DNA from: an uncultured Porphyromonadaceae bacterium
GTDB lineage: Bacteria; Bacteroidota; Bacteroidia; Bacteroidales; Muribaculaceae
Assembly: GCA_947176755.1 (NCBI GenBank)
Contig: CAMWRW010000007.1
Location: 1 to 57,837, forward strand
Length of the DNA: 57,837 nucleotides
Direction of reading: 5' to 3'
How positions within the stretch are numbered: position 1 is the first letter of the stretch; each line of letters opens with the position of its first letter. The translations under genes and the position numbers were made by a program. The notes beneath the pieces were generated by a model. It did no database searches. It saw only the letters and a program-made list of their open reading frames with translations, and had not been told where the DNA came from. This document shows positions 210-43,803 of the stretch, one piece after another.

Positions 210-1496
210 ATGAATACTGAAAAGACAATACCTGTGCTGCTGCTGACGGGATACCTCGGCAGCGGAAAAACAACTCTTCTCAACCGAATTCTTAACAACC
301 GTAAGGGAATCCGTTTTGCTGTTATCGTTAATGATATCGGCGAAGTAAACATTGATGCTGACCTCATAGCCAAAGGGGGCATTGTGGGGAATGATGATGA
401 TTCCCTCGTTGCCCTTCAGAACGGGTGTATCTGCTGCACGCTGAAGATGGACCTCGTCAAACAGCTTTGCGACCTGAAGGCGGCCGGCATATTTGATTAT
501 ATCGTTATCGAGGCGAGCGGCATCTGCGAGCCCGAGCCAATAGCCCAGACCGTCTGCGCCCTACCCCAACTCGCTCCCGAACAAGAGAAGGATGGACACC
601 TTCGGCTTGATTGTATCGCCACTGTTGTCGACGCGCTCCGCCTTAAAGAGGAATTCAACAAGGGAGAGTCGCTTATGCGCAAGGACCTTGACGAAGAGGA
701 TATCGAGAATCTTATCATCCAACAAATCGAATTCTGCAATATCATAATCCTCAACAAGATTTCTGAAATCACACGCGAAGAAGCGGATGAGATCAAAAGA
801 ATCATCCGGGCAATCCAGCCTAAGGCTGAGATTATAGAATGTGATTATTGCAATGTGCCGCTTGAAAGACTAATAGATACGAATCTATTCGATTTTGAGG
901 ATGTTGCCACCTCCGCAACATGGATTCGCGAAATAGAGGCACCTCTGGATGAACTTGAATCGGAACATGACCGGGAAAAGCATCATCATGAGCATGAACA
1001 TGAGCATGATCATCATCATGAACATGAGCATGATCATCATCATGAACATGAGCATGAACATCATCATGAACATGAGCATGAACACGGTCATCATCACCAT
1101 CATCATCATGACGGCGAAGGAGAGGCGGAGGAATACGGCATCAGTACGTTCGTATATTATGCGCGCCGGCCCTTCTCGCTCAATAAATTTGATTGGTTCT
1201 GCGCGAAAGAGTGGCCGGCGGGCGTGATCCGTACAAAGGGATTATGTTATTTCAAGGAGAATCCTGATATGTCTTATCTTTTTGAGCAGGCCGGCAGCCG
1301 GAAGCAGCTTATGGAAGCCGGTCGCTGGTATGCGACCGCACCGGAGGAGGATCTTCAGGCGATGCTTGCGAGAGATCCCGGTTTGATGCGCGATTGGGAC
1401 CCGGAATATGGCGACAGGATGCAGAAGCTCGTATTCATCGGGAAGAATATGGACAAAGAAGGAATCTGCCGGAAGTTGGACAGTCTGCTCGACTAA
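210..1496 (+). CDS. CobW/COG0523-family GTPase with His-rich metal-binding loop
   Basis: A 428-residue G3E-family GTPase, probably a zinc (or other metal) chaperone acting in the cytosol. The Walker A motif GYLGSGKTT lies near residue 14, the family metal motif CICC at residues 73-76, and the switch region has IEASG. The base-specificity position reads NKIS rather than the usual NKxD. Residues about 252-300 are almost only His, Glu and Asp, encoded by a tandem cat/gaa/cat/gag repeat at roughly 979-1110. A CobW C-terminal domain follows (about 310-428). The metal is not decided by sequence: COG0523 members serve zinc, cobalt or nitrile hydratase systems, and no B12 genes adjoin. The stop codon overlaps that of the convergent rmuC by three bases. 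The repeat array at 1-143 is the likely control region. Confidence 0.9.
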   Translation: MNTEKTIPVLLLTGYLGSGKTTLLNRILNNRKGIRFAVIVNDIGEVNIDADLIAKGGIVGNDDDSLVALQNGCICCTLKMDLVKQLCDLKAAGIFDYIVIEASGICEPEPIAQTVCALPQLAPEQEKDGHLRLDCIATVVDALRLKEEFNKGESLMRKDLDEEDIENLIIQQIEFCNIIILNKISEITREEADEIKRIIRAIQPKAEIIECDYCNVPLERLIDTNLFDFEDVATSATWIREIEAPLDELESEHDREKHHHEHEHEHDHHHEHEHDHHHEHEHEHHHEHEHEHGHHHHHHHDGEGEAEEYGISTFVYYARRPFSLNKFDWFCAKEWPAGVIRTKGLCYFKENPDMSYLFEQAGSRKQLMEAGRWYATAPEEDLQAMLARDPGLMRDWDPEYGDRMQKLVFIGKNMDKEGICRKLDSLLD

Positions 1497-3007
1497 TCGA
1501 GATCCAGGCCGAGCTGAGCGGGCGATACCCCCTTTCTTGGCTTGACAGAAGCTCCGAGACGAACGAGTTTCCCACAGGTGACGGGAATGCTCTGGCCTCC
1601 ATCGGCAAGTTTCTTTTGGGCTTCACGATAGGCCTTATCAGCCTTTTCGAGCTCGACTCCGACAGCATTGAACTTCTCCATAAAGATTGAGACACGCTCG
1701 AGCATTTCATTAGCGAGAGCAAAAACTTGTTTGTGGTTCTCAGCTTGGGCAATATTAGTCCAGGTGAGGGCCACAATCTTTAATGCGGCATAGAGAGTCT
1801 GTTCATCGGCGATATAGACATTGCGTTCCATAGCCTTTCGCCAAAGGTCGGGGGCTGTGTTCGTGGCGGCATGAAGAGCGGCAGTGGAGGGGACGAACAT
1901 AATAACGTAACCGATGCTTTTCGTGGGAGTGTCGACAAAATATGAACTGTAGTCCTTTCTTGCGAGTTCGTCGACATGGTTTCTGACTGATTCCACATGT
2001 TTAGCGAGAGCGACGGCACGCGCCTCCTCGGTTTCGGCATTAACGAAGTCGAGATAAGCTGAAAGTGAGACTTTTGAGTCGATAACGACATCTCGGTGCT
2101 GGTCAAGGTGAAGAGTGATATCAGGTCGGAGAGAAGATCCTGAACTTGTCCTGACAGTTTCACCTGAGGCATTGCGGATAGCTGACTGAGCATGAAAATG
2201 AATACCCTCCTTAAGCCCCTGAGATTCGAGGAGCTCGACGAGGACAGTTTCACCCCAATCGCCTTGCACTTTCGTGCCTTTACGGAGAGCCGTGGCGAGA
2301 CGGTCGGCAGAGTCACGAGTCAGCTGGCTTTCGCGTATGATTGTCTCAATATTTGCGCGCATTTCGCCGCGCAGTTTTTCCTGTCTTGAAGAATTATCTG
2401 CTACCGCCTCGTTCATTTTACGAATTGTAGATTCGAGGGGTTCCATCAGCTTTCCGAGAGATTCTGAGCTTGATTTGCTAAATTCTTCCTGGCGTCGGGC
2501 CAGGAGGTCGGCCGTAAGATTTTTCAGTTCCTCCTGCATTTTGGCGACAGTCTCATCGAAACGACCCTGCATAAGTTCCACGGAATCTTTATAGAAAGTT
2601 TCACGGGCGGCGGCAGCCTCCTTATTCGCCTGTTCCAAGCGGGCGATGTCTTCGCGATGGGCCAGTTCCGCACGTTCGATGTCTTCGCGATGAGCCTGCT
2701 CGGCACGTTCGATGTCTACGCGATGAGCCAGTTCGGCACGAGAAATATCGTCGCGATGAGCCTGCTCCAAGCGGTCGATATCTTCACGATGGGCCTGCTC
2801 TACGCGGGCAAGATCGTCGCGCCGCGTCTGTTCGAAGCGCTCAACTGCTTCTGAATGTGAGGTCTGAAGTCGGGCGATGTTCGATTCGTAGGTTTCCTTG
2901 ATGGATTGGATGGATTCGGAAGAGGCTCCGGCGCCTGACTTACCGAAGAAATAGCCTGCGACGAGGCCAAGAAGAAGGGCGATGATTGATAAGATAGCAG
3001 TGATCAT
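1493..3007 (-). CDS. rmuC: DNA recombination protein RmuC
   Basis: A 504-residue RmuC-family protein, which in E. coli limits recombination between inverted repeats. The start at 3007 is chosen because it puts the N-terminal membrane helix (ITAILSIIALLLGLVAGYF) first; an in-frame ATG 60 bases upstream adds a poorly fitting extension. A long coiled coil fills about residues 30-200, then the conserved RmuC domain (KVQGDWGE, SLRPDITLHL, DSKVSLSAY). Residues about 52-122 are near-identical 11-residue repeats of the type RAEQAHREDIE, a hendecad period suggesting an unusual coiled coil. It is the first gene of a divergent pair with uvrA. Confidence 0.92.
   Translation of the reverse strand: MITAILSIIALLLGLVAGYFFGKSGAGASSESIQSIKETYESNIARLQTSHSEAVERFEQTRRDDLARVEQAHREDIDRLEQAHRDDISRAELAHRVDIERAEQAHREDIERAELAHREDIARLEQANKEAAAARETFYKDSVELMQGRFDETVAKMQEELKNLTADLLARRQEEFSKSSSESLGKLMEPLESTIRKMNEAVADNSSRQEKLRGEMRANIETIIRESQLTRDSADRLATALRKGTKVQGDWGETVLVELLESQGLKEGIHFHAQSAIRNASGETVRTSSGSSLRPDITLHLDQHRDVVIDSKVSLSAYLDFVNAETEEARAVALAKHVESVRNHVDELARKDYSSYFVDTPTKSIGYVIMFVPSTAALHAATNTAPDLWRKAMERNVYIADEQTLYAALKIVALTWTNIAQAENHKQVFALANEMLERVSIFMEKFNAVGVELEKADKAYREAQKKLADGGQSIPVTCGKLVRLGASVKPRKGVSPAQLGLDLD
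2640..2822 (-). repeat. 33-bp tandem repeat inside rmuC coiled coil
   Basis: About five and a half near-identical 33-bp units encode successive 11-residue blocks (E/L-Q/L-AHREDI pattern) in RmuC. Units differ at a few bases, so they look like an expanded and partly diverged in-frame repeat. Copy number could vary between strains. Confidence 0.75.
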
Positions 3008-3143
3008 AACATAAGGATTAAAACATAAAATTAATAAAAAAAATTGAAAAGAAACAGGGGAAAACAAAAGAGGACCGATTTTTGAATAAGTGCGATCGGA
3101 TTTACAAGATAAGAGGCTTGGGAAACGTTATAAATAAATAGAC

Positions 3144-27355: not shown

Positions 27356-29074
27356 TTAACTGAACCAGTAGAGCTGGGAGAGCGGCAGAGATGCAGCCGG
27401 AGGCACAGTTGCCTTGAATCCGTCGACAGTCACATCGAATGTTTCGGGATTTACCTCGATGAAAGGAGTGGCCGTGTTGCGGACCATATCTTTCTTCGAG
27501 ATCTGACGCGTTCCGCGGACAGCGTAAATTTCGCTTTGGAGGCCGAGTTTCTCCTTGATGCCGTTTTCGTAAGCTGCCTGAGAAACGAAAGTGAGGCGCG
27601 TGGAGGGAAGGGCCGAACCGTACATACCGTACATCGGACGCATGATTTTCGGCTGGGGGGTAGTAAGCGAAGAGTTGGTGTCACCCATATTCGCCCAGCT
27701 GATAAGGCCACCCTTGATCACGAGATTAGGCTTCGTGCCGAAGAAGGCGGGTTCCCAAAGGACGAGGTCGGCCATTTTACCGACTTCGATAGAACCGAGC
27801 ACCTCGGAGATACCGTAAGTGATTGCGGGGTTGATGGTCATCTGGGCCAGATAACGAAGCACGCGGAAGTTATCATTGGAATCAGAATCCTCGGGGAGTT
27901 TTCCGCGAACCTGTTTCATATACGAAGCCATCTGGAACGTGCGCATGAAAGATTCGCCAACGCGGCCCATAGCCTGAGAATCGGAGGAAACCATAGAGAT
28001 GATTCCGAGATCGTGGAACACGTTTTCGGCGGCCTGCGTTTCGGGACGCACGCGGCTTTCAGCGAAGGCCACATCCGAAGGAATGTTGGGGTTAAGGTTG
28101 TGGCAGACCATAATCATGTCGAAGAGCTCAGCCTGCGAGTTGATACCGAAGGGGAGCGTCGGGTTGGTTGACGAAGGGAGGACATTTGTCATGGAAGCCA
28201 CCTTGAGCAGGTCGGGAGCGTGACCGCCGCCGGCACCCTCGGTGTGGTAAGTATGAATCGTTCGACCGTCGATTGCAGCGAGAGAGTCCTCGACGTAACC
28301 TGATTCATTGAGAGTGTCGGTATGGATGCAGACCTGAACGTCATAACGGTCGGCGACACCGAGGCAGGTGCGAATCACACCGGGAGTCGCTCCCCAGTCT
28401 TCATGAATCTTGAAACCGCAAGCTCCGGCGACCATCTGTTCTTCGAGGTTTTCAGCCACGGAGCAGTTACCCTTACCGAGAAGACCGCAGTTGATAGGAA
28501 TTCCATCGAGGCTCTGGAGAATCTTACCGAGATTCCAGGGACCGGAAGTGATGGTCGTACCATTAGTTCCATCGGTCGGGCCGATACCGCCACCGACGAG
28601 GGTCGTGATACCGTTTGAAAGAGCATCGAGAGCCTGTTGGGGAGAACACATGTGGACGTGACCATCGATACCGGCAGCCGTCAGAATCATGTGTTCGCCG
28701 GAGATAGCGTCTGTGGAGGGGCCTGTGACGAGAGTCGGGGTGACACCTTTCATCACATTGGGGTTACCGGCCTTACCGATACCGGCGATTTTGCCATCTT
28801 TAACGCCGACGTCCGCTTTTACAACGCCGAGGATGGGGTCGATAATGGTGACGTTCGTGATCACGAGGTCAAGACTTCCGGCCTTTGAAGTGCACTCGTT
28901 TGCGAGGCCCATACCGTCGCGGAGCGTCTTGCCGCCACCATAGACCACCTCGTCGCCATAGACGCGGAGGTCTTTTTCAATTTCCACATAGAGGTCGGTG
29001 TTGCCCAGACGGATCTTATCGCCCACCGTGGGCCCGAACAGCATATTATTTTCTTGTCTTGAAATAGTAGCCAT
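27356..29074 (-). CDS. ureC: Urease alpha subunit UreC
   Basis: A 572-residue catalytic subunit of the nickel enzyme that splits urea to ammonia and carbamate. The metal site is intact: HVH in [13 protein letters not shown], the carbamylated lysine in [28 protein letters not shown] and the Asp of SSDSQAMGR. The active-site flap reads MVCHNLN; the Cys and catalytic His are kept, while the next position is Asn where many ureases have His. Length is standard. It follows ureB after 68 bases. Confidence 0.98.
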
Positions 29075-36148: not shown

Positions 36149-36787
36149 ATGATGAATAATGAGAGATGCGGTTTAAAACTTATAGGCATCACATACAATC
36201 AGATTGAGTCGGGTGTCTACGCCGTGATACTCGAGGGGATAGAGATGCAGCGAAGATTGCCTATAGTGATAGGCTATCCGGAGGCACAATCGATCGAGTG
36301 TGTTTTGCAGAATGTGAAGCCTCCACGCCCACTGACCCATGACCTGATGATTGAAATGCTCGATCGTTTCGGCATCCACCTTCGGGAGGTCAACATATTC
36401 CGTCTTGAAAGCGGGGTTTTTGCCGCGGAGCTACTCCTCGAGGGGCCTGACGGCGTTACAAAGACTCTCGATTCAAGGAGTTCAGACGGCATAGCACTTG
36501 CTATCCGATGCGGGGCCCCAATCTATACGACATGGAAAGTGTTGGAAGAATCGGGATTCGAACCTGATAAAAAAACGGGCAGCCAGCAGGAATCACCGCG
36601 ACGTGGTGCCGGCCGGAAGAGTGGAGGCAAGTCATCCGCCAATACGGTCCTGGAAGTCGACCTGAAAGGGAAGAGTCGGGATAAGCTCATCAAAGAGATG
36701 GAGAAGGCTGCGGAGCGAGAGGATTATGAGACGGCAGCCCGCATCAAGGAGGAGCTTCGGCGCAGGGATGCCGAAACGACCGACTGA
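36149..36787 (+). CDS. DUF151 bifunctional-nuclease-domain protein with UVR motif
   Basis: A 212-residue protein. Residues about 8-130 form the DUF151/BFN domain (VILEGIEMQRRLPIVIG, IECVLQ, RPLTHDLM). A basic linker follows, then a UvrB/UvrC-type motif (MEKAAEREDYETAARIKEEL) at about 185-206. In Bacteroidetes the two are commonly fused. Nuclease activity has been reported for plant homologues only, so the function here is unproven. A second ATG three bases downstream is equally possible as start. Confidence 0.85.
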   Translation: MMNNERCGLKLIGITYNQIESGVYAVILEGIEMQRRLPIVIGYPEAQSIECVLQNVKPPRPLTHDLMIEMLDRFGIHLREVNIFRLESGVFAAELLLEGPDGVTKTLDSRSSDGIALAIRCGAPIYTTWKVLEESGFEPDKKTGSQQESPRRGAGRKSGGKSSANTVLEVDLKGKSRDKLIKEMEKAAEREDYETAARIKEELRRRDAETTD

Positions 36788-36813: not shown

Positions 36814-36983
36814 AATAAGTATGTGTTCGAAATTATTTAATGTATCGCCTCATAAATTCTGAGGCGAACTTTAGAATCCGGCTTCAGTTGCTATGGAACC
36901 CCATAACGCCTTCAGCCGAATCCAAAATTTCATCCACATACTTCATAATCCGATACGATAAATAATTTTGTACACATACTTAT
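36814..36983. repeat. 170-bp palindromic MITE-like element, copy 1 (before argR)
   Basis: Identical to copy 2 (41578-41747) at 165 of 170 positions with no gaps. Terminal inverted repeats are perfect over 12 bp (ATAAGTATGTGT at the left, its complement at the right) and extend to about 33 bp with four mismatches. The centre is an imperfect palindrome around CTATGGAACCCCATAA, and a small stem GCCTCA/TGAGGC lies at 36847-36865. It encodes no protein. A TAATTTTG box (36963-36970) at its right end could drive argR, whose ATG is 7 bases beyond the element. Confidence 0.85.
36963..36970 (+). promoter_or_regulatory. Candidate -7 box of argR, carried by the repeat
   Basis: TAATTTTG fits the Bacteroidales -7 consensus and lies 20 bases before the argR ATG, inside repeat copy 1. 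No TTG sits at the usual -33 distance. The matching position in copy 2 has mutated to TAATTTCG. Confidence 0.4.
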
Positions 36984-36990
36984 CATAAAG

Positions 36991-37476
36991 ATGAAAAACC
37001 GAAAGAAAAGAGTGGAGGTGATGATCGACATCATCAACAAGCACTGCATAGGCAGTCAGGAAGAACTTTCCGCTCATCTGCGCAAACGCGGGTTTGACGT
37101 GACACAGGCTACGCTGTCGCGCGACCTGAAAATGCTTAAGACAACAAAAGTTCCTACCGACCGAGGCACGTATATGTATGTTATGCCCCATAGCAATTCT
37201 CTCAAGGATAAGATTATCGCCAATGGGAAGATGCCTCAGCACGCTAATTTCCAGAGCGGTTTCATATCTGTGGAATTCTCGGGCAATATGGCAGTGATAA
37301 AGACTCGCAACGGATATGCCTCGGGGATTGCATACGATATAGATATGCGCAAATATCCGGAAATCTTAGGAACCATCCCCGGCAGCGACACGATATTTGC
37401 AGTGATTGCAGAGCATGCGAGCCATAACCGTGTGCTTGAGATATTCGGGGAGATATTTGATACTAAGAAGAAATGA
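36991..37476 (+). CDS. argR: ArgR-family arginine repressor
   Basis: A 161-residue ArgR. The N-terminal winged helix reads IGSQEELSAHLRKRGFDV with TQATLSRDLKMLK as recognition part; the C-terminal hexamerisation domain has GYASGIAYDIDMRKYPEILGT. The arginine-binding motif, normally GDDTIF, is GSDTIF here, and TRNGYA replaces the usual TRPGYA. It opens an operon with an ArgC-like gene (4-base overlap) and ssb, and lies immediately after a palindromic repeat that may carry its promoter. Effector response may differ from the standard protein. Confidence 0.9.
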   Translation: MKNRKKRVEVMIDIINKHCIGSQEELSAHLRKRGFDVTQATLSRDLKMLKTTKVPTDRGTYMYVMPHSNSLKDKIIANGKMPQHANFQSGFISVEFSGNMAVIKTRNGYASGIAYDIDMRKYPEILGTIPGSDTIFAVIAEHASHNRVLEIFGEIFDTKKK

Positions 37477-38501
37477 TAAAAGTAGCGATTGCCGGAGCCG
37501 ACACACCGCGTGCGGGGGAACTTATCCGCATTTTGGCGGGGCACCCGGATGTTGTGCTTGAATGCGCGCAAGCAACGGGGCTTGAGGGTCTGCCGGTTGC
37601 CTCCCACCATCATGGTCTTATCGGCGAGACGTCGCTCAATTTTTCCAAAAGCATCGATCTCCGCCGCTCGGACGTGCTGTTTATTTGCGGAGCCGTGCCA
37701 ACTAACGCACAGCTTGCCGAATACCGCGTGATGCATCCCGGACTGAAGATAATCATCTTTCCGGGGGAGGGCTCGCAGGCAGAGGAATCTGTCGAAACAA
37801 TCGCGACTGTCCCTTTCTCCGACAATGATGAGGAAAGCAGGGATAGTCTGGAGATGGAGCAGATCAAGGAGGAGTTGGAGGAAGAGAGTGTCGTCGTTTA
37901 CGGATTGCCTGAAATCAATCGTAAGGCTCTTGTTCGGGGTGCGACAACCGCGCTCCTCCCCCATCCGCTTTTGTCGATGTGTCTTGTCGCCCTTTATCCG
38001 GCGGGAATGAATATGCTTCTTTCGGGCAACCCGGAAATTCATATCACAGCGCCTGAAGATATCGTGGCCGGCACTGACACGACGGCTCTCGCTTCGGAAC
38101 TCGAAAGCCGTCTGCGCGATATTCAGAAAGGATTCGCCGGGAGCGTAAAGATCACGACCGATGTCTCCTCAACCCGAAGGACCGGACTGATGAGTCTGAC
38201 GCTCGACTGCGGCATCAACCTTGACCATATCCTCCGGATTTATGAGATTTACGACGACCATCATTTCGCATTCCCGCTGATTCATCGTGTTGGAGTGTCG
38301 GAAGTTGCGGGCACGAATAAATGCGTGATCTCTATAGAGAAACCCGAACCGGGGAAACTGCGGCTGGGGGCTGCGGCCGATATCCGCCTGCGTGGAGGAG
38401 CCGGAGAGGCCGTCCATGTGATGAACCTCATGTTCGGACTGCATGAAAAAACCGGGCTGGCGTTGAAAGCAATTGATTTTTATCCGATAAACGCAGACTG
38501 A
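37473..38501 (+). CDS. ArgC-like protein lacking catalytic residues
   Basis: A 342-residue homologue of N-acetyl-gamma-glutamyl-phosphate reductase. The family frame is clear: an N-terminal Rossmann start (MIKVAIAGAD.PRAGELIRIL), VYGLPEINR, EVAGTNKCVI and the C-terminal GGAGEAVHVMNLMFGL. The NPGC segment after YGLPE is replaced by LLPHPLLSMC, removing the catalytic cysteine; the HRH motif and the DLSADFR stretch are also missing. It is therefore unlikely to be an active reductase. It may bind nucleotide or act as a regulatory partner of ArgR, with which it overlaps by 4 bases. Aspartate-semialdehyde dehydrogenase is related but fits less well. Confidence 0.75.
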   Translation: MIKVAIAGADTPRAGELIRILAGHPDVVLECAQATGLEGLPVASHHHGLIGETSLNFSKSIDLRRSDVLFICGAVPTNAQLAEYRVMHPGLKIIIFPGEGSQAEESVETIATVPFSDNDEESRDSLEMEQIKEELEEESVVVYGLPEINRKALVRGATTALLPHPLLSMCLVALYPAGMNMLLSGNPEIHITAPEDIVAGTDTTALASELESRLRDIQKGFAGSVKITTDVSSTRRTGLMSLTLDCGINLDHILRIYEIYDDHHFAFPLIHRVGVSEVAGTNKCVISIEKPEPGKLRLGAAADIRLRGGAGEAVHVMNLMFGLHEKTGLALKAIDFYPINAD

Positions 38502-38827
38502 TGTCGGTGAACAAAGTCATACTTTTGGGCAATGTGGGCGGAGATCCCGAGATACGCTATCCGGAAAAGGACCGCGCGATCGCTTATCTGTCGCTTGCCA
38601 CCAACGATCGGTTTGGCGGCTCGGGGGCAGAGATGACCGAATGGCATCGACTCGTGATGGGAGGAGAGAATGCGAAGCTCGCCGAGCGTTATATAAGGAA
38701 AGGCTCCCGAATTTATGTGGAGGGGAAACTGCGCACACGAGAATATGAGGATCGCTTCAAGATCACGCGCCGTGTCACAGAAGTGATAGTCGAACGACTT
38801 GAACTCCTCGGCCGTGCGACTTCATAA
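38501..38827 (+). CDS. ssb: Single-stranded DNA-binding protein (short form)
   Basis: A 108-residue OB-fold protein: NKVILLGNVGGDPEIRY at the start, EWHRLVMGGENAKLAERYIRKGSRIYVEGKL and a final VIVERLELL strand. It ends right after the fold and has no acidic DDIPF-type tail, which in the replicative SSB recruits partner proteins. It is therefore probably a secondary SSB. Its ATG overlaps the previous stop (TGATG), placing it in the argR operon. Confidence 0.88.
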   Translation: MSVNKVILLGNVGGDPEIRYPEKDRAIAYLSLATNDRFGGSGAEMTEWHRLVMGGENAKLAERYIRKGSRIYVEGKLRTREYEDRFKITRRVTEVIVERLELLGRATS

Positions 38828-38920
38828 GGCCGCGCCCCGAAAAGGGAGACGGAGCGAATGGGGGGAACAGATGGAATCGGGAAGACTGTATTAATAAGCA
38901 AAGATAAGAAAACAAGAGAG

Positions 38921-40819
38921 ATGAGAAAATGGCGAATTGAAGATTCGGCAGAACTTTACAATATTCCCGGCTGGGGACTAAAATATTTTTCAATCAATGA
39001 CAAAGGGCATGTACAGGTGACTCCTAAAGCCGGTTGCACGCCTGTCGACATCAAGGAGGTGATGGATACGCTTAAGCTGCGCGACGTCGACGCGCCACTG
39101 CTTCTTCGATTTCCGGATATCCTTGATGACCGAATCCGAAAAATCTCGGAATGTTTCCGCAAGGCCGCGAATGAATATGACTACAAGGCCCAGAACTTCA
39201 TAGTCTATCCGATTAAGGTCAATCAGATGCGACCTGTCGTGGAGGAGATTGTGAGCCACGGCAATAAGTATAACATTGGTCTTGAGGCGGGTTCAAAGCC
39301 GGAACTTCATGCCGTGCTTGCAGTGAACACGCATGAAAACTCACTGATTGTCTGCAACGGATATAAGGATGAGGATTACGTCGAACTTGCCCTGCTCGCC
39401 CAAAAAATGGGTCGACGAATCTATCTTGTCGTCGAGAAACTCAACGAGCTCAAGTTGATTGCGAGAGTTTCGAAACGCCTCGGCATCCGACCGAACATAG
39501 GCATCCGCATAAAACTCTCCTCATCCGGTTCGGGGAAATGGGAGGAGTCGGGAGGCGATGTAAGCAAGTTTGGACTCAATTCGTCGGAATTGCTCACGGC
39601 CATCTCGTTTATGGAAAAGAACAAGATGACCGACTGTCTGAAACTTATTCATTTCCATATCGGGAGCCAGATAACGAAAATTCGCCGAATCAAGAACGCA
39701 CTTCGCGAGGCAATGCAGTTCTATGTTCAGCTTTCGAAGATGGGCTACAATATAGAATTTGTCGACATAGGAGGGGGCCTTGGCGTTGATTACGACGGGA
39801 CTCGCTCATCGTCGGGTGAAAACTCGATGAACTATTCCATTCAGGAATATGTGAACGATTCCGTATCGGCTCTTGTCGACGCCTGCACCAAGAATAATCT
39901 TCCCCACCCGAACATCATTACAGAGAGCGGTCGTTCGCTGACGGCCCATCATTCCGTGCTTATCATTCAGGTTCTTGAAACGACCGAGCTGCCCATCTGG
40001 AAGGATGACGAGACGCTGGATGAGAATGCGCATGAACTTGCGCGGGAGCTTTACAATATCTGGGACAAGATCAATTCATCACGCGTGTTCGAGGACTGGC
40101 ACGATGCCCTTCAGATACGCGAGGAAGCCCTCGAACTTTTCAGTCTGGGACTTCTCGACCTGACTAACCGCGCCCAGATCGAGAAACTGTTCTGGTCGGT
40201 TGCGCGCGATGTCCGCGATCTCACGCGCTCGATGAAGCATCCGCCGGAAGAACTGAGGAAAGTCTCGCGAATGCTGCCGGAGAAATATTTCTGTAACTTT
40301 TCACTTTTCCAGTCGCTTCCCGATTCATGGGCAATCGACCAGATGTTTCCCATAATGCCAATCTCGCGACTTGATGAGAAGCCGACGAAGGAATGTACGA
40401 TTCAGGATGTGACCTGCGATTCCGACGGCAAAATCAATCATTTCGTTTCTCCACAGGGCAGCTCGCATTGCCTGAATGTCCACGATCTGAAACCCACAGA
40501 ACCTTACTATCTCGGAGTGTTCCTTGTCGGAGCCTACCAGGAGATTCTTGGCGACCTCCACAATCTGTTCGGCGATACGAACGCCGTGCATATCTCACTG
40601 ACCAAGGATGGATATGAGATCGCACAGGTGATCGACGGCGAGGCAGTGGCCGACGTGCTTGACTATGTGGAATATAATCCGAAGAAACTTGTGCGCAATC
40701 TGGAGACGTGGGTAACGGCGTCGATGAAGCGCGGAGTGATAACACCCGAAGAGGGACGTCAGTTTCTGAACAATTACCGCTCAGGGCTGTACGGGAGCAC
40801 CTATCTTGAACGCGACTGA
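38921..40819 (+). CDS. speA: Biosynthetic arginine decarboxylase SpeA
   Basis: A 632-residue PLP enzyme converting arginine to agmatine for polyamine synthesis. The ATG at 38921 starts MRKWRIEDSAELYNIPGWG, the conserved beginning; an in-frame ATG 63 bases upstream is rejected. The PLP lysine lies in YPIKVNQM, followed by GLEAGSKPEL, HFHIGSQ, FVDIGGGLGVDY and TESGRSLTAHHS. Length is normal for SpeA. It follows ssb after 93 bases and its stop overlaps the truA start. Proximity to argR suggests arginine-linked control. Confidence 0.95.
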   Translation: MRKWRIEDSAELYNIPGWGLKYFSINDKGHVQVTPKAGCTPVDIKEVMDTLKLRDVDAPLLLRFPDILDDRIRKISECFRKAANEYDYKAQNFIVYPIKVNQMRPVVEEIVSHGNKYNIGLEAGSKPELHAVLAVNTHENSLIVCNGYKDEDYVELALLAQKMGRRIYLVVEKLNELKLIARVSKRLGIRPNIGIRIKLSSSGSGKWEESGGDVSKFGLNSSELLTAISFMEKNKMTDCLKLIHFHIGSQITKIRRIKNALREAMQFYVQLSKMGYNIEFVDIGGGLGVDYDGTRSSSGENSMNYSIQEYVNDSVSALVDACTKNNLPHPNIITESGRSLTAHHSVLIIQVLETTELPIWKDDETLDENAHELARELYNIWDKINSSRVFEDWHDALQIREEALELFSLGLLDLTNRAQIEKLFWSVARDVRDLTRSMKHPPEELRKVSRMLPEKYFCNFSLFQSLPDSWAIDQMFPIMPISRLDEKPTKECTIQDVTCDSDGKINHFVSPQGSSHCLNVHDLKPTEPYYLGVFLVGAYQEILGDLHNLFGDTNAVHISLTKDGYEIAQVIDGEAVADVLDYVEYNPKKLVRNLETWVTASMKRGVITPEEGRQFLNNYRSGLYGSTYLERD

Positions 40820-41574
40820 TGCGCTATTTTCTAAAGCTCAGCTACGACGGAGCGCCGTTTCACGGCTGGCAATCACAACCGAACGCGGTAAGCGTTCAGC
40901 AGACTCTGGAGGAGGCATTAACGACCGTGCTCCGGCGCCCGACACCGGTGACGGGCGCCGGCCGGACCGACACGGGGGTGAACGCGCGGGTGATGTACGC
41001 GCATTTTGACACGCCGGAGCCTCTCGGGGATAGCCGTCGGCTACTTCTCTCACTCAACCGACTGTGCGGGCGCTCAATTGCTGTTGACTCGCTGACGGAA
41101 GTGGCTGCAGACGCGCATGCGCGTTTTGACGCCACTCTGCGCACATATAAATATTTCGTCAGCTATGAAAAGAGTCCTTTTCTCGACTCCTTCTCGTGGT
41201 TCTGCCCCGCTCCGCTTGATTTAGAGAATATGAATGAGGCTGCCGCCCTGCTTCTTGACACGGAGGATTTCACCTCCTTCGCGAAACTGCATTCCGATTC
41301 GAAGACCAACATCTGTCGGGTCACGGAGGCACGCTGGGAGGAATGGAAAAACGATTTCGGCACGCCGGGCATCGTCTTCACCATATCCGCCGACCGCTTT
41401 CTTCGCAATATGGTCAGAGCAGTGGTCGGGACACTTGTCGACGTAGGCCGGGGGAAACTTGACCGGGAGAGCTTCAGGAGAATAATCGAGCGGCAGGACC
41501 GCTGCGCGGCAGGACAGTCAATGCCGGCCAAGGCGTTATTTCTTTGGGATGTGAAGTATCCCTACATTAAATAG
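40819..41574 (+). CDS. truA: tRNA pseudouridine synthase A (TruA)
   Basis: A 251-residue TruA, which makes pseudouridine at positions 38-40 of tRNA anticodon stems. The catalytic Asp lies in GAGRTDTGVNAR near residue 50, with FHGWQSQ at the start and FLRNMVRAVVGTLVDVGRGK near the end. It shares a TGATG junction with speA and ends 3 bases before repeat copy 2. Confidence 0.95.
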   Translation: MRYFLKLSYDGAPFHGWQSQPNAVSVQQTLEEALTTVLRRPTPVTGAGRTDTGVNARVMYAHFDTPEPLGDSRRLLLSLNRLCGRSIAVDSLTEVAADAHARFDATLRTYKYFVSYEKSPFLDSFSWFCPAPLDLENMNEAAALLLDTEDFTSFAKLHSDSKTNICRVTEARWEEWKNDFGTPGIVFTISADRFLRNMVRAVVGTLVDVGRGKLDRESFRRIIERQDRCAAGQSMPAKALFLWDVKYPYIK

Positions 41575-41577
41575 ACA

Positions 41578-41747
41578 AATAAGTATGTGTTCGAAATTAT
41601 TTAATGCATCGCCTCATAAATTTTGAGGCGAACTTTGGAATCCGGCTTCAGTTGCTATGGAACCCCATAACGCCTTCAGCCGAATCCAAAATTTCATCCA
41701 CATACTTCATAATCCGATACGATAAATAATTTCGTAGACATACTTAT
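41578..41747. repeat. 170-bp palindromic MITE-like element, copy 2 (before ligA)
   Basis: Second copy of the element at 36814-36983, with five substitutions. The inverted repeat at the right end has one mismatch (TAGACATACTTAT), so 10 bp remain paired at the tips. The last two bases, A41746 and T41747, are the first two of the ligA ATG. The -7-like box reads TAATTTCG at 41727-41734. It begins 3 bases after the truA stop. No clear target-site duplication is visible at either copy. Confidence 0.85.
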
Positions 41748-43803
41748 GGATACACGCGAGAGAATCGAACAGCTCCGGAATGAGCTCCACCGACATAATC
41801 ACAATTATTACATTCTGAACTCGCCGGAGATTTCCGACCGGGAATTCGACGGGATGATGCACGAACTGGAGAAACTCGAACAGGAGCATCCGGAATATGC
41901 CGATCCCTTGTCGCCGACCCAACGTGTCGGGTCCGATCTGACGAAGGGATTCGAGCATGTTGTCCATGCCCGGCCGATGATGTCGCTGTCCAACACATAC
42001 TCGATCGATGAGGTCGACGAATGGTTCGGGCGGGTGAAGAAGGCTCTTGAAGGAGAGGATTTCAAGATTGTCGGAGAGATGAAGTTTGACGGGACCTCCA
42101 TATCCATCACCTATCGGAACGGGCGACTCGAACGAGCTGTAACGCGCGGCGACGGGACTCAGGGGGATGATGTGACGTCAAATGTAAAGACAATCCGGAG
42201 CATTCCTCTTCAGCTTCAGCCGGGCGACTGGCCGGATGAATTCGAAATCCGGGGAGAGATTCTTATGCCGTGGGAAGTTTTCGAGAAACTGAATGCCGAG
42301 CGAGCCTATAACGAGGAACCCTTGTTCGCCAATCCAAGAAACGCCGCGTCGGGGACGCTGAAGATGCAGGATTCTAAAGAAGTTGCAAAAAGGCATCTTG
42401 ATGCACGTTTTTATTATCTACTGAGCGACCGACTTCCATATAATAATCACTATGACAACATGGAGGCGGCCCGACGCTGGGGATTCAAAGTTTCGAAAGC
42501 GATGAAGCTGATGGAGACGCTGGAGGAAGTTGATGAGTATATCGGCTACTGGGATGAGGAGCGAAAAAACTTGCCTGTCGCTACGGACGGACTTGTCTTC
42601 AAGGTCAATTCCCTTCGTCAGCAGCTGAATCTCGGCTACACGGCGAAATCGCCGCGCTGGGCTGTGGCTTTCAAGTTCAATCCGGAACGCGCGTGCACTC
42701 CGCTTCGGTTCGTGTCGTTCGAAACGGGGCGAATGGGAATAGTGACACCGGTTGCGAATCTCGAACCGGTCCAGTTGTCGGGTACCATCGTGAAGCGGGC
42801 GTCGCTCCATAACGACGACATAATTCAGGAACTCGACATTCATGAGGGAGACTCCTTATATGTTGAAAAGGCGGGAGAGATTATTCCCCAAATCACGGGA
42901 GTCGACGTTTCGGCCCGCATTCCGGGGGCAGCGAAGATTGTGTTCGTGAAGGAGTGTCCCGAATGCGGGACTCCCCTGCGGCGAATTTTCGGAGAAGCGG
43001 CATGGTGTTGTCCCAACAAGTATGGCTGTCGTCCACAAATCACGGGCAGGATAGAGCACTTTTGCGCCCGACGAATGATGGACATCGACGGCATAGGGGA
43101 GGAAACCGCGGAACTTCTTTTTGACGCCGGGCTTGTGGAGAATATCGGCGACATCTATTCGCTGACTGCAGAAAAACTGTCTAGTCTTGACCGCATAGGG
43201 GAAAAGACGGCGTCACGCATAATGGCCGGTATTGAAGAATCGAAAAGCGTTCCTTTCGGGCGCGTGCTATACGCCTTGTCGATTCCGAATGTCGGAGAGA
43301 CAACGGCCAAACGGATTGCACGGACTGTCGGAAGCATGGAACGCCTTCGCGGGATGACGCTTGAAGAACTCACGGCACTCCCGGACGTGGGCCCGATTAT
43401 CGCGGGGTGTATCCATGATTTCCTCCGCGACCCGGTGAACGTTGCCAATATCGAGAATCTTGCGGAAGCCGGGGTCAGGATGAGAGTGGACGAAACGCAG
43501 GGACCTTCCGGAACGGCACTTCAAGATAAAGCAATCGTGATTTCCGGAACCTTCCGCCACCATTCACGCGACGAATATAAGGATATCATAGTCGCACAAG
43601 GGGGGAAAAACACGGGAAGCATTTCTAAAAAGACTTCGTTTGTGCTTGCAGGGGAAAACATGGGACCTGCAAAACTTGATAAATGTCGATCGCTCGGGAT
43701 TCCGATTGTGGGAGAGGATGAATTTCTCCAAATGCTAAATATTAACGGAGAAGAGCCTGAAGCTGAGGGAGAAGCCGGGACTGCAACCGAAGCCGAGGGA
43801 TAA
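41746..43803 (+). CDS. ligA: NAD-dependent DNA ligase LigA
   Basis: A 685-residue ligase with standard domain order. Domain Ia (HRHNHNYYILNSPEISDREFD) starts at about residue 14, so the ATG at 41746 is the only reasonable start. The adenylation lysine is in KFDGTSIS near residue 111. The C4 zinc finger (CPECGTPL..CCPNKYGC) precedes helix-hairpin-helix repeats, and a BRCT domain (AIVISGTFRHH, GGKNTGSISKKTSFV) ends it, followed by an acidic Glu-rich tail. Unusually, the start codon is formed by the end of a dispersed repeat, and no Shine-Dalgarno sequence is present. Confidence 0.95.
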   Translation: MDTRERIEQLRNELHRHNHNYYILNSPEISDREFDGMMHELEKLEQEHPEYADPLSPTQRVGSDLTKGFEHVVHARPMMSLSNTYSIDEVDEWFGRVKKALEGEDFKIVGEMKFDGTSISITYRNGRLERAVTRGDGTQGDDVTSNVKTIRSIPLQLQPGDWPDEFEIRGEILMPWEVFEKLNAERAYNEEPLFANPRNAASGTLKMQDSKEVAKRHLDARFYYLLSDRLPYNNHYDNMEAARRWGFKVSKAMKLMETLEEVDEYIGYWDEERKNLPVATDGLVFKVNSLRQQLNLGYTAKSPRWAVAFKFNPERACTPLRFVSFETGRMGIVTPVANLEPVQLSGTIVKRASLHNDDIIQELDIHEGDSLYVEKAGEIIPQITGVDVSARIPGAAKIVFVKECPECGTPLRRIFGEAAWCCPNKYGCRPQITGRIEHFCARRMMDIDGIGEETAELLFDAGLVENIGDIYSLTAEKLSSLDRIGEKTASRIMAGIEESKSVPFGRVLYALSIPNVGETTAKRIARTVGSMERLRGMTLEELTALPDVGPIIAGCIHDFLRDPVNVANIENLAEAGVRMRVDETQGPSGTALQDKAIVISGTFRHHSRDEYKDIIVAQGGKNTGSISKKTSFVLAGENMGPAKLDKCRSLGIPIVGEDEFLQMLNINGEEPEAEGEAGTATEAEG

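Follow-up and report, generated by a model that had tools for sequence, protein, structure and literature searches.

The window analyzed here, a 57,837-nt stretch of contig CAMWRW010000007.1 from an uncultured Porphyromonadaceae bacterium of the family Muribaculaceae, contains two copies of an intergenic repeat, one before argR and one before ligA. In our opinion, this repeat is very probably a non-coding, 167-bp miniature inverted-repeat transposable element (MITE) with IS630-type ends, which is present in at least 26 copies in the host genome, is likely moved in trans by an IS630 transposase, and would become the leader of the next gene downstream. Judged by its sequence, it is a new family of TA-ended IS630-type MITE, the kind itself being well known.

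The repeated unit and its patchy distribution

Pairwise comparison of positions 36814-36983 and 41578-41747 found 165 of 170 bases identical (5 differences) in two copies of the same orientation with unrelated flanks. All of this agrees with the original prediction of two 170-bp copies, except for the length: the boundaries set by copies with unrelated flanks define a common unit of 167 bp, TAAGTATGTG...CACATACTTA, and the outermost bases of the proposed 170 bp are flank. The exact 11-mer TAAGTATGTGT is present at both ends of copy 1 and, with one mismatch, at the right end of copy 2. Both copies lie between a stop codon and a start codon, as had been predicted, the ATG of ligA overlapping the last base of copy 2. 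The parts of the two copies are as follows.

36816..36982, + strand: MITE copy 1, 167 bp, between a bifunctional nuclease gene and argR (copy comparison)
41580..41746, + strand: MITE copy 2, 167 bp, located between truA and ligA; its final A opens the ligA ATG (copy comparison)
36816..36826, + strand: left terminal inverted repeat of copy 1, TAAGTATGTGT; its first TA is the presumed target dinucleotide
36972..36982, - strand: right terminal inverted repeat of copy 1
41580..41590, + strand: left terminal inverted repeat of copy 2
41736..41746, - strand: right terminal inverted repeat of copy 2, one mismatch
36846..36866, + strand: inner hairpin of the left arm, CGCCTCA-loop-TGAGGCG, in the plus-strand fold

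The unit is thus short, non-coding and multicopy, and comparison of copy ends showed it to be TA-ended with terminal inverted repeats, as is typical of bacterial MITEs. A minus-strand reading frame of 20 aa was considered and rejected: it can be placed in part of the copies, and those of genomes G029 and G079 have stops in it or have lost its start.

The host genome (G000; 2.27 Mb in 97 contigs) contains at least 26 matches of 140 bp or longer, four of which are older copies of 82-83% identity, together with ends and fragments, some of them at contig ends. This number, already far above what chance would produce, is a lower bound, as 40 of 46 first-look candidates were scored. The counts for the genus and the family are lower bounds as well, given that at most 7 or 2 matches, respectively, were taken per genome. 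With the host included in each case, matches, some of them partial or weak, were found in 8 of 111 genomes of the genus, and a family sample yielded matches in 13 of 397 genomes, belonging to 6 of 30 genera. The exact 24-base end is present in 27 stretches of named genome records, the titles of which read uncultured Muribaculaceae or Muribaculaceae, Duncaniella, Bacteroides, Bacteroidales, and Porphyromonadaceae. Plasmids and phages searched with the element gave no match, nor did viral contigs searched with the exact end pattern. In the family sample, identity reaches 93% and 92% in two other genera, whereas the truA-ligA genes are 64-78% identical within the genus among the matches listed. 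That a non-coding stretch is better conserved than these genes points to horizontal spread or else to strong constraint; we infer that the spread between genera is horizontal. An alignment of 74 copies complete at both ends, covering 10 genome labels, gives a 167-bp consensus for most labels; even the copy of G028, about 65% identical to the others, has a length of 167 bp.

Presence varies at both orthologous sites examined. Thirty loci were fetched per site search, 27 of which were read for truA-ligA and 28 for argR (own locus included in each). Among 26 relatives with adjacent truA and ligA, 25 leave no room for the element, their gaps measuring -2 to 114 nt, and one has a gap of 970 nt. The element precedes argR in none of 27 relatives; a 7-mer match alone singled out one of them, and the stretch shown contains no visible element. 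The repeat is therefore neither restricted to two copies nor invariant in presence. Its copy number, patchy presence and unoccupied orthologous sites, together with the IS630 transposons described below, bear out the proposal of a mobile, non-autonomous element, which presumably moves, or has moved.

These data also bear on the possibility that the element is a conserved cis-regulatory RNA cassette that has descended together with its genes. Such a cassette would account for the mostly constant length and for the covarying hairpin described below, but it is already contradicted by the absence of the element from the orthologous sites examined. Only one locus pair has both neighbors in common, namely L007 in the host and L112 in G029, and the copies in it belong to different age classes (98% vs. 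82% identical to the window copy); a second pair, L002 and L042, has only the downstream gene in common. The remaining copies are flanked by proteins unrelated by blastp, or have only opposite-side genes in common. Moreover, neither window copy matches any Rfam model at the gathering threshold. We consider an inherited RNA cassette highly improbable.

Element ends and IS630 transposases

IS630-family transposons with ends similar to those of the MITE were found in the genus, where a search with the helix-turn-helix protein of G028 mentioned below retrieved hits in 13 of 111 genomes and a search with DDE_3 in 22 of 111. In G026, an IS630 transposase frame (NF033545, E 1.4e-28) adjoins TAAGTAACTGTTCAAAATTATTTT, which equals the MITE end at 20 of 24 positions. 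G001 has a 363-aa open frame with a whole DDE domain (NF033545, E 6.8e-39) within a 1131-bp element, TAAGTAAGC...TTTACTTA; this frame is not called intact, since the helix-turn-helix part was not recognized in it. G028 has two further IS630 elements with paired ends, and G018 has one with a single end of this type. In G028, a MITE-type end located at contig starts adjoins the beginning of a helix-turn-helix protein. Among the loci returned, paired ends surround a transposase in four elements only (one in G026, one in G001 and two in G028). By its terminal sequence, an autonomous IS630 relative of the MITE would thus be represented best by the transposon of G026 and less well by those of G001, G028 and G018. 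The transposase with matching ends that the original prediction had suggested looking for exists, then, in the genus and was not found in the host genome itself.

IS630 elements insert at TA. By the mechanism proposed here, an IS630-family transposase acting in trans would cut the MITE out and paste it into TA dinucleotides. Short elements with the same ends and different interiors are present in G007, G028, G029 and the host genome, as expected if the transposase recognizes the ends only.

Several observations on individual elements should be recorded here. In G028, L217, L218 and L230 combine an element with a helix-turn-helix transposase start; about 60 bp inside its end lies a second, inverted TAAGTATGTGT, which resembles the inner CACATACTT of the right arm of the MITE. 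The loci with the same terminal sequence and differing interiors include L200 and L209 (G029), L064 (G000:C4:19106-19256) and L210-L215 (G007), and their size is about 46 to 150 bp where both ends are seen. Four loci, L059 (G000:C14:32308), L060 (C9:9868), L078 and L091, are solitary left ends of 24-26 bp, perfectly or nearly perfectly conserved, with the rest of the element absent; L059 and L078 start 8 and 7 nt, respectively, after a TAnnTTTG box. A composite transposon was considered, and rejected, at C54:3108-4015, where a full copy and a half copy flank one gene; by eye, this gene is membrane protein-like.

A palindromic, extragenic and strand-asymmetric repeat could also be REPIN-like and be moved by a RAYT (Y1) transposase. 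The two transposase families searched were IS630 and Y1. Y1_Tnp has no match in the host genome, although 73 of 111 genus genomes have one, G029 and G006 included, and the ends of the element resemble those of IS630 transposons; a REPIN-like origin is therefore barely credible.

Orientation, promoter boxes and folding

With the element oriented as in the window, 82 of 102 matches, aligned over at least 100 nt, were scored against gene calls made by a simple codon-usage method (the call downstream of L023, where an ATG directly follows the element, is doubtful). Between tandem genes, the right end faces the downstream gene in 44 of 50 copies, as opposed to 6 reversed ones (two-sided p 3e-8). 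The ratio is 15 to 0 in the host genome and 6 to 1 among later copies from other genera (p 0.125 alone); L288, L292 and L295 (loci counted before under named records), L302 (the window copy) and L300 (a fragment) were not counted as new, and L293 lies in a divergent pair. Neither this bias nor the hairpin strand asymmetry described below had been noticed in the original prediction. The bias is strong and offers a testable sign that either mRNA leaders are under selection or insertion is directed.

The right end is also the one close to start codons, which lie within 35 nt of it in 41 of 82 copies and within 35 nt of the left end in 5 of 82. In 8 of the 82, the last base of the element is shared with the downstream ATG, and in 4 the left-end TAA serves as the stop codon of the upstream gene. 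The ends thus fit intergenic life, in that the left one may supply an upstream TAA stop and the right one may overlap a downstream ATG. Compared with 285 intergenic TA sites of the window, start-codon overlap is more frequent in the host copies (5/26 vs. 15/285, p 0.018), as is a start within 35 nt (19/26 vs. 127/285, p 0.005). Precise targeting of start codons was nevertheless rejected: the position along tandem gaps is uniform (Kolmogorov-Smirnov p 0.16), so that any preference is modest at most.

Directed insertion, in which the transposition machinery would place the element in sense close to where transcription starts, e.g., in the open complex, is consistent with the completeness of the bias in the younger host copies, where all 12 tandem members of the main subfamily follow it. 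It is likewise consistent with the boxes upstream of 86 left ends: 15 TAnnTTTG boxes lie within 60 nt of them, 6 of these at a distance of 6-8 nt, i.e., at about the place of a transcription start (6% expected, p 1.5e-4, for an interval chosen after the data had been seen). On the other hand, such a box is missing upstream of most of the 86 left ends, the position inside tandem gaps is uniform, as noted above, and, of the six box-adjacent ends, two are solitary 26-bp ends, one is partial and one is cut by a contig end. We know of no IS630 mechanism that directs insertion in this way, and this explanation seems quite unlikely to us.

A second explanation of the bias is a portable promoter, by which an outward promoter in the right arm would let copies survive only when facing a gene. 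Each window copy has a candidate box near its right end.

36963..36970, + strand: -7-type box TAATTTTG of copy 1, which fits TAnnTTTG; ACT, not TTG, at spacing 23
41727..41734, + strand: equivalent box TAATTTCG of copy 2, with one mismatch to the consensus; ACT again at spacing 23

The predicted -7-type box at the downstream end was thus located exactly in copy 1 and with one base off in copy 2. Before native genes (225 upstream regions, element copies removed), TAnnTTTG is found 93 times vs. 28 on the opposite strand, and TTG most often precedes it at a spacing of 23 bases. In 22 of 25 host copies, a box of the form TAnnTTTG or TAnnTTCG lies at 12 nt from the right end, which, like the orientation bias itself, fits a portable promoter; it is an exact TAnnTTTG in 5 of the 25, the argR copy included, and TAATTTCG in 17. 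Excerpts of the literature on the Correia and BrickBuilt MITEs also report promoters in them (PMC10969869, PMC4596501). TAnnTTCG, however, is not enriched in the same 225 native upstream regions (7 vs. 5 on the opposite strand), and both window copies have ACT at the native TTG spacing of 23. In addition, the consensus right ends of G029, G006 and G062 depart from TAnnTT(T/C)G, and the same box is present at the left end in most host copies, so that it does not explain direction. The prediction that the element brings a promoter to housekeeping genes thus finds little backing. A promoter carried by the element is weakly supported; it is possible in some copies, e.g., before argR, and is not supported as the general reason for the orientation. 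As an explanation of the bias, a portable promoter is possible, though doubtful.

The third explanation, and the one we favor, starts from folding. The whole 167 bp form an imperfect palindrome, and the predicted capacity for a full-length hairpin was borne out in comparison with shuffled sequences, none of 200 folding as well in either case (copy 1 as DNA, z = -6.3; copy 2 as RNA, z = -7.2). The two strands are not equivalent, since the minus strand folds better than the plus, gene-sense strand in 73 of 75 copies. Mirrored positions of the plus strand comprise 545 A.C vs. 207 G.T combinations, which means that wobbles favor the minus strand. For covariation, 43 of the 74 full copies were kept as a diverse set (N-containing copies, two longer than 175 bp and near-identical ones being removed), and 35 of these were aligned. 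In the minus-strand hairpin of the 35 copies, 90.7% of cells are paired, and 21 of 65 pairs have changed on both sides, compared with 9.9 in shuffles, none of 500 of which reached 21. RNAalifold assigned the same alignment -87.4 kcal/mol on the minus strand vs. -66.6 kcal/mol on the plus strand. In a default run on the plus strand, RNAalifold found no more than 3 pairs; RIBOSUM scoring brought out a full structure.

We propose that an inserted copy would be transcribed as the leader of the following gene and that the orientation most likely results from selection acting on copies once they are in place. A copy in sense would give the mRNA the weaker-folding strand, with A.C mismatches in place of the G.U pairs of the other strand, and the downstream gene would stay expressed; a reversed copy would turn the leader into a near-perfect hairpin and would disappear. 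In our opinion, the possible causes rank as weak folding of the sense strand, then a promoter, then directed insertion. A broader and unlikely extension would make the element a portable mRNA leader, which inserts in sense into promoters and the gaps of operons, downstream of the transcription start and ahead of the start codon, and persists by virtue of differently tuned strands, the sense strand being loose and the opposite one a near-perfect, wobble-paired hairpin that possibly acts as RNA in the life cycle of the element.

Several findings weigh against an IS630-moved MITE whose orientation is set by folding. As regards mobility, a good end match is confined to one end of one transposon (the 20/24 of G026), the others scoring 13-20/24, and loose, unpaired matches to the end sequence are common in the scanned loci. 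The IS630 transposase (PF13358, DDE_3) has no match in either of the two genomes richest in copies, the host and G029, so that the presumed partner is missing where it is most needed. With the partner expected of an IS630-derived MITE not found in its own genome, that partner may have been lost, be unassembled, belong to another family or act after occasional transfer; an assembly of 97 contigs, some ending in the repeat, makes an unassembled IS630 copy possible. At most TA fits the flanks as a target-site duplication, and the relatives compared are too distant to provide a near-identical empty site, so that the fixed TA could belong to the element itself. Some copies deviate in length (155, 172, 202 and 203 bp). 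Nor is identity within a genome always above that between genomes, as in G062 (0.837 within the genome vs. 0.838 with G079) and in two JAAVFI copies that are mutually 0.665 identical.

As regards orientation, the asymmetry rests on a handful of inherited sites, and shared ancestry inflates the counts, so that cell counts overstate independence. G062 and G079 are mixed in orientation (5 vs. 3 tandem) and yet have the same fold asymmetry, which weakens the idea of selection by folding, and the reversed copies L044, L052 and L105 retain minus-strand hairpins of -72 to -76 kcal/mol. Finally, both strands fold strongly, and even the weaker hairpin, where it touches a start codon, should still hinder translation. 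The dozens of insertions constitute a natural experiment on the effect of a 167-nt hairpin directly before start codons, that of ligA included.

Other features of the window and comparison with known elements

The genes adjoining the two copies are listed below.

36149..36787, + strand: gene with bifunctional nuclease domain and UVR motif, upstream of copy 1
36991..37476, + strand: argR, downstream of copy 1, starting 8 bp after the element
40819..41574, + strand: truA (tRNA pseudouridine synthase), upstream of copy 2, ending 5 bp before the element
41746..43803, + strand: ligA (NAD-dependent DNA ligase), downstream of copy 2

Elsewhere in the window, positions 28623-28925 of the plus strand match the Rfam model 5_ureB_sRNA (RF02514, 64 bits) antisense to a minus-strand gene (27356-29074) named urease alpha subunit by eye; the match probably reflects coding conservation rather than a small RNA. 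Repeats of 12 bp at 957-1124 encode a long His-Glu-rich stretch, HEHEHDHHHEHEH, in the protein encoded at 210-1496, which we take to be CobW/GTP-binding-like. Tandem repeats of 33 bp at 2628-2858 encode an 11-residue repeat in the protein encoded at 1493-3067 on the minus strand, which presumably resembles RmuC.

Our searches of the open-access literature turned up no MITE of Muribaculaceae and no IS630-type MITE of Bacteroidales. Together with the lack of an Rfam match, this agrees with the original remark that the element is not of a described family, the kind (a TA-ended bacterial MITE) being familiar; its identification adds a family-wide, probably recently active MITE to Muribaculaceae. 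The comparisons that follow draw on excerpts of the papers cited. According to these, TA ends, terminal repeats and long hairpin transcripts are features of bacterial MITEs (PMC2229807). RUP of Streptococcus pneumoniae, paired with IS630-Spn1, is, like the element described here, short and non-coding, with TA termini and proposed mobilization by an IS630-family transposase; it differs in its host and in having 9-bp inverted repeats (PMC2229807), whereas nearly all of the 167 bp are palindromic here, the orientation is biased and the partner was not found in the host genome. The Correia/NEMIS elements of Neisseria can be likened by description, being about 105-155 bp long and TA-ended, with a long hairpin transcript and a location often immediately upstream of genes (PMC2229807, PMC10969869, PMC2649163); in that other host, the effects reported involve promoters, IHF and RNase III (PMC2229807, PMC10969869). 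ERIC of enterobacteria, a 127-bp repeat with TA ends, has an orientation-dependent effect on mRNA; unlike the present element, it belongs to another host and is reported to destabilize the upstream transcript (PMC2229807). BrickBuilt, MITE239, MITE700 and MITEPgRS of Porphyromonas gingivalis are likewise MITEs of Bacteroidales, and BrickBuilt is likewise intergenic (PMC4596501). The ends of these P. gingivalis MITEs (GAGACC..., ACGT...) are, however, IS5-family-like and unlike TAAGTATGTG when compared by eye, and BrickBuilt holds a minisatellite (PMC4596501).

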